The notes under the pieces were generated by a model. The model did no database searches and was not told the origin of the DNA. It saw nothing but the letters and a program-made list of their open reading frames with translations. Shown one piece after another: positions 9,546-16,036 of a stretch of 30,155 nucleotides of DNA. Source of the DNA: a virus; IMG/VR virus record IMGVR_UViG_3300033146_000757, positions 1-30,155 of that record; one strand, written 5' to 3'. Position 1 is the stretch's first letter. Every line of letters begins with the position of its first letter. The position numbers and the translations under genes are program-made.

Positions 9546-10040
9546 CTATTTCTTCCGTCTCAGTTTCTTGGTTGATCTTCTCTTGCTTGGTGTCATTATC
9601 TTGATTCCCATTTCTTTTAGATTGTTCTCATTCATCACTCTAAATTTCCATCCCTTTTTATTACAAAATGTCTTAGCGGCTGACCATTTTGACCTATTTG
9701 TTGCATATGTCTGTTCTGCAAGAATGAAATTCTTTGTTCCTTTCTTTCCTTTAGGGGGTACACACTCAGTGCTCGGTTTTATCTCGATCAGATATTCCCG
9801 TCCATCAGCAAACTTCACAAAGAAGTCCGGGAAGTACCTGCGATTCTTTCGAGTACCAAGATCAAAATATGGTATCGAGATCGGTTCTATACCCCACATA
9901 ACCACGGCATTGTTATTATCACACCACCGGCAAAACAATCTTTCCCAGGATGACCGATAATGAACATTGTCGAGGTCTCCGATATATTTATCCGGGTTCT
10001 TTACTCTATAATTACCCGTATATGTCTTTCTTTTTTTCAA
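9546..10040 (-). CDS. 4: Head completion protein gp4 (PD-(D/E)XK nuclease fold)
   Basis: This encodes 164 residues beginning at a TTG codon (10040-10038). GGAGA lies six bases upstream on the minus strand, and no in-frame ATG before the conserved region fits. It matches T4 gp4 throughout: TYTGNYRVKNPDKYIGD, HYRSSWERLFCRWCD, a VMWGIEPISIPYFD strand and RYFPDFFVKFADGREYLIEIKP. The nuclease-fold residues are visible as Glu33, Pro71-Asp72 and Glu86-Ile-Lys88. gp4 acts in T4 head completion before tail joining. The C-terminus is very basic (SKRRSTKKLRRKK), suiting DNA binding. It is the first gene of the leftward late operon, 28 bases from the predicted start point of the minus-strand late promoter. 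Confidence 0.9.
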   Translation of the reverse strand: MKKRKTYTGNYRVKNPDKYIGDLDNVHYRSSWERLFCRWCDNNNAVVMWGIEPISIPYFDLGTRKNRRYFPDFFVKFADGREYLIEIKPSTECVPPKGKKGTKNFILAEQTYATNRSKWSAAKTFCNKKGWKFRVMNENNLKEMGIKIMTPSKRRSTKKLRRKK

Positions 10041-10053
10041 GGCAATCTCCTTG

Positions 10054-10061
10054 TATAAATA
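10054..10061 (+). promoter_or_regulatory. T4-type late promoter for the rightward baseplate operon
   Basis: This is an exact TATAAATA box in the only divergent intergenic gap of the window. With the T4 geometry (box at -13 to -6) the start would be near 10067, leaving a leader of about 33 bases with AAGGAGA before the ATG at 10100. It matches the presence of gp33 in this phage. Confidence 0.85.
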
Positions 10062-10073
10062 ATGATATAGTAA

Positions 10074-10081
10074 TATTTATA
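10074..10081 (-). promoter_or_regulatory. T4-type late promoter for the leftward gp4-tape measure operon
   Basis: TATTTATA on the plus strand is an exact TATAAATA on the minus strand. The start would be near 10068, about 28 bases before the TTG start of gp4. It faces the rightward late promoter across 12 bases, so both transcripts would begin at adjoining bases and run apart. Confidence 0.83.
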
Positions 10082-10099
10082 CCGATCAAGGAGATAGAA

Positions 10100-10885
10100 A
10101 TGACAGTAGCCGGACTAATGAATACACCAAAATACAGCCGTAATGTGATACGGGTTGGTGATGTACAAACAAATGCGCCATTTACTGTATTGAATAGTGA
10201 GCTTGGTACTGTTATTCAATTACCATTACCACTAAATCTCACGTCCAATATGAATGCCGATTGGCAGAATGAAGAAGTTGGATTAGTGCGCTATCATCTC
10301 ATGCACAACAAAGAAGCCATAAACAATGCAGAACTGCCATCAAGTTTCAAAGATATGATAGCATCTATGCGTTCTCTTGGTTCAACACTAATGGATAAAG
10401 CCAGCAGTATGGCTAAGAATGATGTTGCGGCAATCAGGGCAAGAACACGGTCCAGAAGTAAGATTGGTGGATTGAAAATAGCCAAAAATCCAAGAATTGA
10501 GATGATGTTCAACGGTATGCAGTTCAAGTCATATTCCTTTGATTTCATGCTGGTGCCAACATCACAACGAGATTCCGCTATGATAGAAGAAGCTATCAAG
10601 GAAATTCAAAAGGCATCGGTTCCTACTCTTCGTGGTGAAAAAATGTTCATGGAATACCCGGAGACCTGGAATATCAAATTCATGGCCGGAGAAAAAGACG
10701 GAAACCGATATATCATGAAGATCAATGAGTGCTGTTGCACCGGAGTAACTATCAATTATACCCCGACCACAGAATCATTTAATATGCATGAAGGTAATGC
10801 TCCTCTTTCTGTTGAATTGACCCTTGACTTTACCGAGATATTCATTCCAACAAAAGAGACAATCGAAGAAGGATTCAGCGGATAG
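10100..10885 (+). CDS. Baseplate tail-tube cap/initiator, gp48/gp54-like
   Basis: This encodes 261 residues from the ATG at 10100, chosen for its AAGGAGA and because an in-frame start at 9950 would lie inside gp4 and upstream of the late promoter. The C-terminal half has a tube-fold pattern: PETWNIKFMAGEKD, INECCCTGVTINYTPTTESFNMHEG, then LSVELTLDFTEIFIPTKETI, similar to the end of T4 gp48 (SIRFDKTPNG, then FTLEITMREI). The middle (about 85-150) is Ser/Ala-rich and basic, like the low-complexity part of gp48. In T4, gp48 and gp54 sit on the hub and start tube polymerisation. It is the first gene of the rightward late operon, followed nine bases later by gp53. Three consecutive cysteines (ECCCTG) are unusual. 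gp48 versus gp54 is not resolved. Confidence 0.7.
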   Translation: MTVAGLMNTPKYSRNVIRVGDVQTNAPFTVLNSELGTVIQLPLPLNLTSNMNADWQNEEVGLVRYHLMHNKEAINNAELPSSFKDMIASMRSLGSTLMDKASSMAKNDVAAIRARTRSRSKIGGLKIAKNPRIEMMFNGMQFKSYSFDFMLVPTSQRDSAMIEEAIKEIQKASVPTLRGEKMFMEYPETWNIKFMAGEKDGNRYIMKINECCCTGVTINYTPTTESFNMHEGNAPLSVELTLDFTEIFIPTKETIEEGFSG

Positions 10886-10894
10886 GAGATATAC

Positions 10895-11488
10895 ATGGCA
10901 ACATCAGATTTCTATAAATATGAAACCTTCGGTGAGAAGAGCAAATTCTTCTTCAATGGATTCCCATACATTGACTATGACATCCTTGGAAATGGTGAGA
11001 AACAGAAGATCAAGAACTTCTTCAAAAGGTTTGATTTCCGAGAAAAGATCAGGAAGATGGGGTCTATCTATACAAAATGGGTTGTCCGAGAGGATGATAC
11101 CCCGGAAGTTATTGCCCATAAACTGTATAATAGCACTCATTATTACTGGATAGTGCTCATGATCAATAAAATGCATGATCCATTCTTTGATTTTCCCCTC
11201 ACAGAAAGGGAATTAGCCGAATATGTAGAGAAGAAATACGGGTTGGAAAACAAATATGCTATCCATCACTACGAAACAATAGAAGATGCCGCAGTCGGAG
11301 CACTCCCACCAGGGATCATTGTTGATAAATACTATCCACACGCAAAACAGGAAATTGATAACTTCCAATATGAAGCAAAGAAGAATGACGAAAAACGTCA
11401 CATCCTTCTTCTGGAACCACAATATCTTGAGCAAGTCCTGGAAGAACTGAATACAATCCTAACATCCAATTTCACGAGAGTCAAATGA
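10895..11488 (+). CDS. 53: Baseplate wedge protein gp53
   Basis: This encodes 197 residues, the same size as T4 gp53 (196). Distinctive segments are WVVREDDTPEVIAHKLYNSTHYYWIVLMINKM and DPFFDFPLTERELAEYVEKKYG, the family's LysM-like core at about residues 55-110. An N-terminal FFNGFPYIDYDI strand region precedes it. gp53 joins wedges to each other and to the hub during baseplate assembly. GGAGA precedes the ATG by six bases. The stop overlaps the next start (ATGA, 11485-11488). The TATAAATA formed by its codons TAT AAA TA at 10913 is probably coincidental. Confidence 0.92.
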   Translation: MATSDFYKYETFGEKSKFFFNGFPYIDYDILGNGEKQKIKNFFKRFDFREKIRKMGSIYTKWVVREDDTPEVIAHKLYNSTHYYWIVLMINKMHDPFFDFPLTERELAEYVEKKYGLENKYAIHHYETIEDAAVGALPPGIIVDKYYPHAKQEIDNFQYEAKKNDEKRHILLLEPQYLEQVLEELNTILTSNFTRVK

Positions 11489-11790
11489 AAAAATTCAAAG
11501 AAGTAATTAATGAAGATCATGTTGATGTAAAAGACATGAGTGATGTTCAATTATGCCGAAAGGGTATGGTTGAAGAGATCAAAGCAATCAATCTGTATGA
11601 ACAAATGGCCGCACAGGCTACTGATGCACGAGTAAGAGAACTTTTACTTGACATTGCCGAAGAAGAAAAAGTCCATATGGTTGAGTTTGAGGAATTGATG
11701 GAAAGGCTTGATCCAAGTTGGGAAGAAGTAGAGGAAGAGGGAGAGCAGGAAAGCGAAGATATGTTCGGCCCTGAAAACGAGACTGAGTAA
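11485..11790 (+). CDS. Ferritin-like protein of the encapsulated-ferritin (half-ferritin) type
   Basis: This encodes 101 residues in two helices. The first carries KGMVEEIKAINLYEQMA (residues 27-42) and the second LLLDIAEEEKVHMVEFEELM (53-72), followed by RLDPSWEE. Glu31, Glu61 and His64 form an E-30-ExxH arrangement. From memory, the encapsulated ferritin of Rhodospirillum rubrum has Glu32, Glu62 and His65 at identical spacing, with a similar EEKEH and RDP context. Such half-ferritins dimerise to form a di-iron site. The protein ends in an acidic tail (residues 80-101). It overlaps gp53 by four bases and gp27 by one (TAATG), so it is made together with baseplate proteins. Iron binding is inferred. 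A simple helical assembly factor that has lost the metal site function is the alternative. Confidence 0.7.
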   Translation: MKKFKEVINEDHVDVKDMSDVQLCRKGMVEEIKAINLYEQMAAQATDARVRELLLDIAEEEKVHMVEFEELMERLDPSWEEVEEEGEQESEDMFGPENETE

Positions 11791-13187
11791 TGGCAACAAA
11801 GGACCATAGGGGATATTTTGCCCCTGGCACATACAACATAAAGAAATTATATCTCAGAGATCATGATGTTGATTTCCGGTTCAAATTCTTGGAAGTCAAT
11901 ATCTTTGAATCCATCTTTCAGCCTTGTATGACTGCAGATATAACCCTTCTTGATGCCGACAATATGGTAGCAAACCTGCCCATTGTCGAAGGCGATGTTG
12001 TGGAGATTCATTTCACCCTGAATGAAGATGATAAGATTCAACAGAATATCTATCAGGATGGTGGAGAAATCAAGTGTGTGATGGAGGTAATAAAGATTAC
12101 ATCCCGGATCAAGGTATCGAATCAGGATGTGCAGACATATAACCTTCGTCTTGCCTCTATCGGATGGTCCAACAATGTCAGAACAAGACTCTCTCGTGGA
12201 TACAAAAAGAAGAAATATTCCGATGTAGTAAGGGAGATATTTCAAGACAAATTTCAGATGCAAGGTGCTCTCGGTCTCAAAGGTAATGGGAGTGAGTTCA
12301 CTGAAAAAGACCTCAAGGATATTGAGATTGAAGAAACACATGGGTCTTATTCATTCGTTCTACCCCGATGGAAACCGATTCAGTGCTTCAACTGGTTGGC
12401 TGGCCGGTCTCAGTCAGGCAAAAATAAGAATGCAGTGAATTACTTCTTCTATGAGGATAAAGACAAGTTCAATTTCGTTACTCTGGACTCTCTCTTGCAG
12501 AAAGATGGTCCTACCTATTTTGTGAAACTTGAGAACATCAAGAAGGAAGACATCAGGAACTATTTCAATATCTATGACTATTCCTATGAGGATACCGGTG
12601 ATGTTCTCATAAATGCTTCTTCTGGTACATTCGGGTCACGTCTCATTGTACACAATATGGTGACAAAGGAAGTAGATGATCACTTTCCGCAGGGTATGTG
12701 GTCTCTTGAGTACAATATCCACGGATACCCGGCAAATCAGGATGAATTTGGGACAATAGGTGTTGACCGATTTGGATACAACTCAGAGTTTGGGAAAACA
12801 ACTCATACTGATCAAATTCCTCTTATCCCGGAAGATGTTGGTGATACCCTCTCTCAAAATCCAGGAAATACCCGGTTATTGGTCCATTCTACGCACCGGT
12901 ATAAGCATGATGGAGAAAAGACCAACCATCCAGAACAATGGATGAGACAAAGGATTATGCAAAAGCCACAATCAAAGTATATCCGCATGACCATAACAAC
13001 CATCGGAAACTTTGATCGAAAGGCCGGAGGTATTATCAATATTGATCTTCCATCACCAGAAGAAACAAAGGGAAAGAAAGACAAGAGACTCACAGGCAAA
13101 TATCTTGTCACATCAGTACGTCATATATTCAAGCCAACTAAGTATGAGACCGTAATGGAATGTATGAAAGACTCATTCGCAGGATAA
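11790..13187 (+). CDS. 27: Baseplate central hub protein gp27
   Basis: This encodes 465 residues (T4 gp27 has 391). It has the gp27 organisation: an N-terminal beta-barrel with FKFLEVNIFESIFQPCMTADITLLDADNM (about 30-60) and GDVVEIHFTL, a YNLRLASIGW strand (about 115), a helix pair, a central FVLPRWKPIQCFNWLAGRS motif (about 188-206), a second barrel, and a C-terminal KYLVTSVRHIFKPTKYETVMECMKD. gp27 forms the trimeric ring that carries the gp5 spike. The start overlaps the stop of the ferritin-like gene. In T4-like genomes gp5 is commonly near; here an endonuclease gene has been placed between the two. The insert is only four bases after the gp27 stop. Confidence 0.9.
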   Translation: MATKDHRGYFAPGTYNIKKLYLRDHDVDFRFKFLEVNIFESIFQPCMTADITLLDADNMVANLPIVEGDVVEIHFTLNEDDKIQQNIYQDGGEIKCVMEVIKITSRIKVSNQDVQTYNLRLASIGWSNNVRTRLSRGYKKKKYSDVVREIFQDKFQMQGALGLKGNGSEFTEKDLKDIEIEETHGSYSFVLPRWKPIQCFNWLAGRSQSGKNKNAVNYFFYEDKDKFNFVTLDSLLQKDGPTYFVKLENIKKEDIRNYFNIYDYSYEDTGDVLINASSGTFGSRLIVHNMVTKEVDDHFPQGMWSLEYNIHGYPANQDEFGTIGVDRFGYNSEFGKTTHTDQIPLIPEDVGDTLSQNPGNTRLLVHSTHRYKHDGEKTNHPEQWMRQRIMQKPQSKYIRMTITTIGNFDRKAGGIINIDLPSPEETKGKKDKRLTGKYLVTSVRHIFKPTKYETVMECMKDSFAG

Positions 13188-13190
13188 CAG

Positions 13191-13667
13191 ATGTTAGAAC
13201 GTCATCATATTACTCCAAAATGTTTACTAAAACATAAAAATAAGGAGTTTATAGAAGACCCTCGAAATATTGCATATATAGAACATAAATATCATGTAAG
13301 TGTGCATAAATGGCTATTTATACTTACAGGCGATAGAGGGTGTGAATGTGCATGGAATGGGATGAAAACTGGTAAATTTAGATATGATTGGACAGGAGTT
13401 ACAGGAAGAAAAGATACATTAGAGACAAGAATAAAAAAGTCTCGTGTACGAATTGGGATGAAATTTTCTAAATCTCATTGTGAAAACATTAGAAAATCAA
13501 AAATTGGTAAAAACAATAAAAGATCAAAACAATGGTTTATAAATGGTCATTTATTCTATTCAGCATACGAAGCTGCCAGATTCTTTTCTGTAAGTGATGC
13601 CACCATAAAACGCTGGTGCAATCCACAAAGTAAATATCACACACCTTTATGTTATAAGAGGGGGTGA
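13191..13667 (+). CDS. Free-standing HNH homing endonuclease with NUMOD-type DNA-binding modules
   Basis: This encodes 158 residues. The N-terminus has an HNH core: [10 protein letters not shown] (residues 3-12), [20 protein letters not shown] (23-42). Residues 84-112 ([20 protein letters not shown]) are a NUMOD3-like basic minor-groove module and 116-145 ([15 protein letters not shown], then SDATIKRWC) a NUMOD1/helix-turn-helix module. Composition is clearly more AT-rich than its neighbours, with many AAA, AAT and ATA codons, which indicates separate origin. It lies between gp27 and gp5 and overlaps gp5 by four bases (GTGA). Homing endonucleases of this type cut a related genome at the same junction and spread by repair. 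It has a full-length layout, so it may be active. Confidence 0.88.
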
Positions 13668-16036
13668 CTAAAATTTTTGATACAAAATCGACTCACAGAC
13701 TCGGTAATGATGGGTTCTATTGGTTCATCGGAGTCATAGAAGATATAAATGACCCGTTACAACTCGGAAGGGTACGAGTCCGTATTCTTGGCGACCACAC
13801 ACAATCAAAGACTCTCATTCCTACTGATACCCTTCCATGGGCATATCCTGTCAATGATATTCATTCTGCATCCATGCAAGGTATGGGCAAATCTCCTACC
13901 GGCTTATTCGTCAAAGGAGCATGGGTATTTGGTTTCTATATGGATGGAATGGACAAGCAACAGCCAGTTGTTATGGGGTCACTTGGTGGTATCCCTGAAT
14001 CTATTCCATGGAAGCCAAAGAAGGCTGATGAAGAAGGTGAAGGCAATCTTGAAGAAGATGATCAGGTAGAAGTCGGTTTCCAAGACCCGGATATGAAATT
14101 TCCTATGGGTCATGCCATCTTTGAACAAGACACTAACCGACTGGCCAGGAACACACCAAAAGATCATGCGGCAGAAATTCCAGAAGATTTAGTTCCTAAA
14201 CAGGAAGAGATGATAGAGGGTGGACTATGCCCGAAGAAACCTGTTTATGCCAAGAAGTATTATGACAAGTTTGATGAAGCCTTTGTCCGCAAGTTTGCTC
14301 AGGGAGAATCCTCTAAACTGGTCTGTGATGATTCTGTTGTCGGTAATACTCAATGCAAGAGTGGCACCAAAGACCTCAAGGTTCAGGACAAGAAGGATGA
14401 GAAATGTCAATACTTCTTATTGAACAATGATCATCCGTTCACTATCTACAAGTTCATAAACCGGGAACGATTTGTTCCTATGGCCAAGCCATTTGCTGAT
14501 CCGATGCATCAAGAGCATTGGCATGAACCAGATAATCCATGGGCGGCTCAATATCCATATAACATGGTATGGGAAGGATACCATGAGGAAGGGTCCACCA
14601 CAATACAGAATCCAGGCAACCCGGATGTATCAGAGGCGTATTGCTATAATAAGACCATCGAAGACTATGATGGTTCCGCCAAAGAAGGCATATTCAGAAA
14701 GCAGAAGTGTGGTATTGGATCATGGGGTCTTGGTGAGGAATGGGACAACACACCAGGAAATCAAAGGTATCATAGATTCCACCCGGCTGGCAATTATTTT
14801 GAGATTGACAAAAAAGGTAATGAAGTCAGAAAGATATATGGTGATGGGTTCGAGATAAATGTCCAAGACAAGAGCATCTATATCAAAGGTGATTGGAATA
14901 TCACAGTTCTTGGAGACAAGAACGAATTGATCATGGGTGATTATAACCTGCAGATCATGGGAGATCAGAACACAGATGTCCGTGGAGACATAAAGACCCA
15001 TACCGACCATAATCATTCTCTCCATGTCCGAGAAGATAGAAAACTTACCATAGATGGTAATGATACCAGACGAATAGCCGGTGATAGAAACACATCCATT
15101 CTCAAAAGAGATTATATTGAATCCGTTGATGCTGAAAGACGTGCAGATACCATTATCAGATATGGTGCAAAATCCATATATGATGAAGGGTTTATGGAGT
15201 ATAAACTCAAGGTAAATCAAGCACTTATTGAAATATGTGAGTTGAAGTCTCAAATTGACAAGTGGACAAGTGAAATTACTACCATGGATGAGACCGTGGT
15301 TGACTATACAGAAGAGATATTGAACCTCACTTCCACCATCGGAATATATGATGAAACTGTAACCACACATAATGAAACTACTGGTACTCTCACTATGAAT
15401 ACCAATACCCTGGATGAGACTACTGAGCACCATACAGAAACCAGTAAAGAATATTCAGAGTTCAGAGAGACATATTACGGTTGTGTTGAGGATTGGGAAC
15501 TTCATACAGATAAGTTCAAAGTTTACTATCAAACAGAGATGCAAATGGAACAACAGGCTTTTGCTTGTATGACCGGTATCACCGATCCAACTATACCAAT
15601 ACCAGAAGCACCAGTAGTAGAAGCAGTTGTCTTTGATGAGAAGGCACACTACCCGGAAACAGATGGATACCAGCAGTGCTTGAGAAAGTATAATGAATGT
15701 GTAGAGGCCACTAAAGCCGCCTGTATGACCACTCTTGTTGATCCACGAACATTGAAGGAGTACACCCGCATTGATTGGGAGAAATACCATGCATCTATCA
15801 AATCATGCCATGAATCATACATGCAATGCATAGAAGCAAATACAGGCAGTGAATGTGATATTTGCTCTCCTGAACCGGGAGTTCTTGAATGGGAATGCAT
15901 ACCATGTCACGATCCAAACTGTCCACAAGATGATAAGACATGGGAATTTTACAACTGTGAATGCCAATGCGAACACTCACCAAAGGAAGAAAAGAAAATT
16001 GATCCGTGGGAGAACTGCGAAAGAGAGGAACCATAA
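13664..16036 (+). CDS. 5: Baseplate hub spike protein gp5, with no recognisable lysozyme domain and a Cys-rich C-terminal extension
   Basis: This encodes 790 residues from a GTG that overlaps the endonuclease stop. Residues about 15-115 are the OB-fold domain ([26 protein letters not shown], like WFVGVVEDRMDPLKLGRVRVR of T4). Where T4 gp5 has its lysozyme (about 174-342) I see no Glu-Asp-Thr lysozyme signature. Residues about 255-385 hold a [14 protein letters not shown] segment and an [25 protein letters not shown] segment typical of spike proteins. Residues about 375-500 are the triple-stranded beta-helix with repeated GD turns ([28 protein letters not shown]). A coiled-coil follows (about 505-600). 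The last 185 residues hold 16 cysteines, including [13 protein letters not shown] and CECQCEH. The spike pierces the outer membrane. The unusual tail may bind metal or form disulphides. Confidence 0.88.

Follow-up and report, generated by a model that had tools for sequence, protein, structure and literature searches.

What is a ferritin-like gene doing among the baseplate genes of a T4-like phage? The question is raised by the window, the whole 30,155-bp IMG/VR fragment analysed here, whose genes encode a gp33-like late regulator, gp59, gp32, hub, tube, gp2, gp4, gp48/54, gp53, gp27, gp5, gp25, gp6, gp7, a gp8-like protein, and a 1923-aa protein. The ferritin ORF is overlapped on both sides, by the end of gp53 at 11488 (ATGA) and by the start of gp27 at 11790 (TAATG), as the initial annotation had described; T4 indeed has no gene at this place, gp5 coming directly after gp53. 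The features discussed below are as follows.

9950..10885, + strand: gp48/54-like baseplate tube cap; its homologue directly precedes the ferritin in L055 and L002
10895..11488, + strand: gp53 baseplate wedge, the upstream neighbour
11485..11790, + strand: EncFtn-like ferritin gene, 101 aa (profile, PDB sequence match, AlphaFold, Foldseek)
11485..11514, + strand: capsid-targeting-like peptide MKKFKEVINE, residues 1–10 (likeness to T4 IPIII and L055, motif rank)
11506..11514, + strand: predicted prohead-protease site I-N-E|D, cut after Glu10 (gp21 motif L/I-X-E, PMC9026906; 31/36 enrichment)
11536..11724, + strand: EncFtn helical domain, residues 18–80 (domain match, predicted helices)
11575..11577, + strand: Glu31, predicted ferroxidase ligand, equivalent to Rru Glu32 (invariant in alignment)
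11665..11667, + strand: Glu61, predicted bridging ferroxidase ligand, equivalent to Rru Glu62 (invariant in alignment)
11674..11676, + strand: His64, predicted ferroxidase ligand, equivalent to Rru His65 (invariant in alignment)
11719..11787, + strand: acidic C-terminal tail, residues 79–101, without an encapsulin targeting peptide (sequence, alignment)
11790..13187, + strand: gp27-like hub/tail protein, the downstream neighbour

Protein family, fold and predicted iron site

The gene is real and encodes an EncFtn homologue, with a match far above chance. Its closest solved relative is the encapsulin-fused ferritin domain of Pyrococcus furiosus (phmmer against PDB; 5n5e, E 1.3e-13; 2e0z, 8.8e-13), followed by EncB/EncC and Rru_A0973. 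The Pfam EncFtn-like profile PF22277 is passed marginally (27.5 bits at a cut-off of 27), and Rubrerythrin PF02915 likewise scores above its own cut-off. Two NCBIfam profiles remain below their curated cut-offs, EncB_fam with 59.8 of the 90 bits needed, although at 2e-16, and ferrit_encaps with 51.7 of 125 bits; assignment to the NCBI EncB subfamily was dropped because of this score.

The AlphaFold model (33 phage sequences as input, pLDDT 89.5) predicts two long antiparallel helices and a short third one (residues 20–44, 48–75, and 78–94). The best Foldseek matches are EncFtn structures (5n5e, 7s5c, 5da5); R. rubrum EncFtn is among those returned, and M. xanthus EncB superimposes with an rmsd of ~1 Å across 60 residues. 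The two-helix architecture claimed earlier is borne out by this confident model of a single chain, which resembles EncFtn structures.

Glu31, Glu61, and His64 (ExxH) and the LDPSW segment, singled out in the initial annotation, are all found in the ferritin ORF, and the three ligand positions are kept in each of the 33 aligned phage relatives (33/33), so the earlier reading of these residues holds. The complete invariant set comprises Glu31, Tyr38, Glu60, Glu61, Lys62, His64, Glu67, and Phe68. In Rru-EncFtn, iron is held by Glu32, Glu62, and His65, the Glu62Ala substitution abolishes activity, and iron is required for decamer assembly (PMC11202242). The family and the predicted iron site of the window protein, an EncFtn-type half-ferritin with an intact ferroxidase set, are well supported by the PDB match, Pfam, AlphaFold/Foldseek, and the invariant ligands.

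Gene position in sister phages

Baseplate genes are common to the window, four contigs, and one 157-kb sister (G055). In L055 and L002 (gp27 67% in both), the ferritin gene lies between gp48/54 and gp53, while L053 (gp27 77%, gp2 85%) and G055 (gp27 71%) have no ferritin at either site. A search of relatives for the same gene between gp53 and gp27 had been suggested; the sisters have it at the other site, or not at all. Across these phages the baseplate genes are constant, but the ferritin gene may be present or absent and changes its place. It is therefore a mobile passenger in this operon and no conserved baseplate part. Two further observations concern the operon itself. A 353-aa ORF preceding gp27 (L054:2-1063) shows marginal similarity to gp53 and may be a divergent or replaced gp53, and a homing-endonuclease-like gene lies between gp27 and gp5 both in the window (13191-13667) and in L055 (12200-12697).

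This mobility bears on one of the roles initially proposed for the protein, iron loading into the tail or spike, considered here as a tail or baseplate component bringing iron to the cell surface by a Ferrojan-horse mechanism. The position among baseplate genes speaks for it, as does gp217 of Vi01-like phages, a protein found in virions by mass spectrometry and identified as ferritin-like through fold recognition, for which its authors suggested a link to the tail and to tail-mediated entry (PMC10892097). However, the window gene occupies two intergenic sites and is absent from sisters with the same baseplate genes; the neighbours of its relatives are the portal, gp4/gp2, or other tagged genes, not those of the baseplate; its N-terminus carries a capsid-type tag with a predicted protease site (see below); and the assignment of gp217 came from Phyre2 at 22% identity, no phage record matching the window protein. 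We consider a tail iron carrier very improbable and discarded it on gene mobility and the capsid tag.

The initial annotation also connected the ferritin with a cysteine-rich spike. The spike is real: 23 of the 790 residues of gp5 are Cys, and they cluster towards its C-terminal end. The last ~100 residues of this spike/lysozyme protein (window 13664-16036) contain CDIC, CIPC, and CECQC, and may form a metal-binding tip. The link to the ferritin falls, since the Cys-rich tail is conserved in L054, L055, and G055, with or without ferritin, and the ferritin-less G055 is equally Cys-rich.

The N-terminal peptide and links to the phage head

In T4, residues 1–10 of IPIII constitute a capsid-targeting sequence (CTS), with positions 4 and 7 important for targeting and positions 8 and 10 for processing, and gp21 cleaves after L/I-X-E (PMC9026906). 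Translation of the T4 record gives internal proteins that start with MKTYQEFIAE (IPII, IPIII) and MKTFKEFTST (IPI). The window ferritin starts with MKKFKEVINE|D, which follows the T4 CTS pattern at residues 4, 7, 8, and 10, with Val instead of Phe at position 7. Tags are likewise seen in the sister ferritins of L055 (MKTFKTLISE|D) and L003 (MKGFGNFIDE|V), so that three of the four family members match; in the close sister L002 the tag is degraded (MKTFKRIARE) and has no L/I-x-E. The window peptide, which resembles a T4-type capsid-targeting sequence and ends in a predicted prohead-protease site, argues for a place inside the capsid rather than in the tail or spike.

Head genes are absent from the window fragment, so the phage's own protease is not seen there; in G055, the sister without a ferritin, a T4-type portal, the Gp23 capsid protein, and an S77 (gp21-family) prohead protease are all encoded. 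Seven non-ferritin genes of G055 are tagged (MKSYKELLIE, MKKYNNFISE, MKYFNQFLIE, MKSYKKYLTE, MKSFIKYITE, MKHFKDYILE, and MKTYNDLIIE), the last of them directly behind the S77 protease; three are mutual paralogues, the others unrelated. When the 92 genes of eight other contigs are scored with a position matrix built from these seven tags only, the ferritins take ranks 1, 2, 3, and 5; the score is 11.7 for the window ferritin and about 1 or less for every other window gene. The training peptides were selected by a regular expression after the data had been seen, hence the evidence is in the ranks, with no formal p-value. One tagged gene (G055, L194:15064-15573) encodes a 169-aa protein with weak similarity to 2'-5' RNA ligase / Acb1, possibly a packaged counter-defence enzyme.

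Alignment-guided scans yielded 47 distinct EncFtn domains in phages, of which 38 are stand-alone proteins and nine belong to longer ORFs. L/I-x-E precedes the domain in 31 of the 36 stand-alone phage ferritins with an N-terminal extension; the expected count, obtained by drawing N-termini from the remaining genes on these contigs, is 13.8, with a maximum of 26 in 20,000 draws. Glu is the sole clearly enriched residue of the 20 at the third position of the site, and the signal is retained in clusters at 65% identity (17.5/22 vs 8.0/22 expected). A stricter CTS-like pattern is found in 20/38 stand-alone phage ferritins vs 100/666 (Fisher p 2e-7), the regular expressions having been chosen after the data had been seen; no excess remains if Glu in this pattern is swapped for Gln, Asp, Lys, Ser, or Asn. 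Counting against a head cargo are the degraded tag of L002, the 18/38 ferritins without the strict CTS, and the 5/36 without L/I-x-E.

In cellular relatives of EncFtn (Ammonifex, Patescibacteria, Baldrarchaeota) the N-terminus is MLSKIP-like, and the predicted phage cut falls at about the cellular start, as in LSE|LLSKIP (L016) and INE|ILSKIP (L063); the phage form hence looks like a tag plus a cut site plus a cell-type EncFtn. In a tree of the short domain, 27 stand-alone phage proteins including that of the window form a clade (support 99/92), while the deeper order with P. furiosus and the portal fusions lacks support. Neither the window protein nor two of its relatives, used as queries, matched any phage record; the sole phage-record match, Eggerthella phage LE2-3, was obtained only with P. 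furiosus or portal-fused queries. No encapsulin partner was found in the records searched: the shell gene PF04454 is found in 0/21 records, the largest ferritin phages included, and in none of the window ORFs, and by inspection the acidic tail of the window ferritin has no C-terminal encapsulin targeting peptide.

The domain is also connected to head genes by fusion or by position. In phages of other types, EncFtn is fused to the portal C-terminus in L008, L012, and L013 (PF06381; the L013 portal match is just under the cut-off) and to DUF2213 in L018. The ferritin adjoins the portal in L021 and lies ~2.5 kb after a T4-type portal in L063; in LE2-3 a gene annotated as a ferritin-like protein lies between the portal and major capsid genes; and some relatives adjoin gp4/gp2. 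In several T4-like phages the neighbours have the tag as well, examples being MDKKTLNFDDFITE beside the ferritin N-terminus MKKTLNFDDFLNE in L005, and in L113 a run of MKLDKYLNE, MKNFINYMKE, the ferritin MSKFKDYITE, and MDKVNKYLNE. Among the ferritin-bearing records, many of them short fragments, an S77 protease scores above the cut-off in seven, and a T4-type portal is found in ten.

Portal fusions and nearness to head genes would also be consistent with a head-assembly or scaffold helper, in which the EncFtn fold acts as an organiser of a dimer or decamer core with no iron role. Such a helper appears highly improbable, as Glu31/Glu61/His64 and Tyr38 are invariant over very diverse phages, and ferritin-less sisters have the same tail genes, one of them with the full head gene set.

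The remaining alternative is an iron-detoxifying accessory enzyme that acts free in the host cytoplasm, unpackaged, its tag resemblance being a coincidence or a relic. The ferroxidase residues are intact, the gene is mobile and dispensable among sisters, and gut phages are known to carry Dps and Mn-catalases as accessory genes (PMC8008677); the lost tag consensus of L002 and the several untagged phage ferritins also fit a cytoplasmic role. Such a role is, however, rather unlikely given the tag in most of the window's own family, the top places of ferritins in the motif ranking, the Glu-specific L/I-x-E enrichment, the tagged neighbours, and the portal fusions.

Several side observations concern these contigs. 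Many genes in G016 (L016/L017), G013 (L014), L066, and L077 share an MRLxxYLxE / MKFKEYLNE N-terminus, apparently forming packaged cargo repertoires. Tagged neighbours (L077, L063, L066, and G013 paralogues) were considered as Alt-like ADP-ribosyltransferases by their LWRG/RS/E motifs, and this was rejected, with no support from Pfam or from AlphaFold and Foldseek; this family has no PDB fold match. DnaJ-like proteins with capsid-targeting-like N-termini (L098:6559-7587, L113:10286-10977; DnaJ domain confirmed by Pfam in L098 only) are possible packaged co-chaperones. Long ORFs combine EncFtn and NUDIX hydrolase domains (L073:4210-6279, L074:4867-7644), and a single ORF, L008:5980-8637, encodes a phage portal, then EncFtn, then a topoisomerase IB domain. 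In G019 (the L020 phage), the portal (36128-37420) and the prohead protease (34576-35064) contain one in-frame TGA each, suggesting TGA recoding.

Proposed role and comparison with known systems

Encapsulin shells have the phage capsid fold, with EncFtn as cargo. The window gene likely encodes an EncFtn-family ferroxidase, predicted to be a cargo of the phage head, and the phage probably packs a mini-ferritin in its capsid in the manner of bacterial encapsulin shells. The decapeptide MKKFKEVINE would bind the scaffold core, loading the ferritin into the prohead; the prohead protease would cut after Glu10; and the mature protein, residues 11–101, would stay with the DNA in the capsid, where subunit pairs could form di-iron sites oxidising Fe(II). 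More speculatively, this oxidation may keep free iron off the packaged genome, and/or small ferritin subunits may be ejected with the DNA, assemble in the host, and lower early Fe(II)/Fenton damage. Ejection as a decamer is argued against by the EncFtn ring of 7–8 nm, too large for the tail tube intact; the ejected form could be single subunits or dimers of ~10 kDa, passing through the tail like the T4 internal proteins, and as EncFtn decamer assembly is iron-dependent (PMC11202242), host Fe(II) may then trigger their assembly.

The occurrence of EncFtn in many lineages of tailed phages, as a probable cargo that is tagged or fused to the portal, would be a phage parallel to encapsulins, and suggests that selection acts on iron chemistry within the virion or during the first minutes of an infection. 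Going further, capsid-tagged and portal-fused phage EncFtns might be the viral counterpart of encapsulin cargo and an old phage habit, the encapsulin–ferritin partnership descending from a ferritin-carrying phage head; we regard this as doubtful. A virus origin of the partnership becomes testable. The capsid-targeting peptide also offers a means of predicting, from metagenomes, which phage proteins are injected. No earlier report of a capsid-tagged EncFtn was found in the open-access papers searched.

Among known systems, phage Dps and Mn-catalase genes are likewise phage-carried ferritin-superfamily enzymes, but belong to other families, with a proposed action in the host cell and no capsid tag reported (PMC8008677). 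The gp217 protein of Vi01-like phages is similar as a claimed virion-associated ferritin, but is a weak fold-recognition call only, and its authors proposed a tail location (PMC10892097). The T4 proteins IPI–IPIII and Alt share the N-terminal tag M-K-x-[FY]-x-x-[hydrophobic]-[IL]-x-E with its L/I-x-E site; the T4 internal proteins, whose tag is cut by a gp21-family protease, are small accessory cargo whose set differs from phage to phage (PMC3012670, PMC9026906). No iron protein is among them, whereas the body here is EncFtn. The EncFtn/EncB cargo proteins (Rru_A0973, Mx EncB) are also two-helix half-ferritins with E..ExxH, and would match as cargo of an HK97-fold shell if the tag works; theirs is a C-terminal targeting peptide, while here an N-terminal, predicted-cleavable tag is combined with a phage head. 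The Pyrococcus furiosus domain (5n5e, 2e0z) is closest in sequence and fold, with the same ligand residues at the same spacing; there it is fused to the HK97-fold shell, whereas here a phage gene of its own encodes the domain, with an N-terminal tag of the T4 type.
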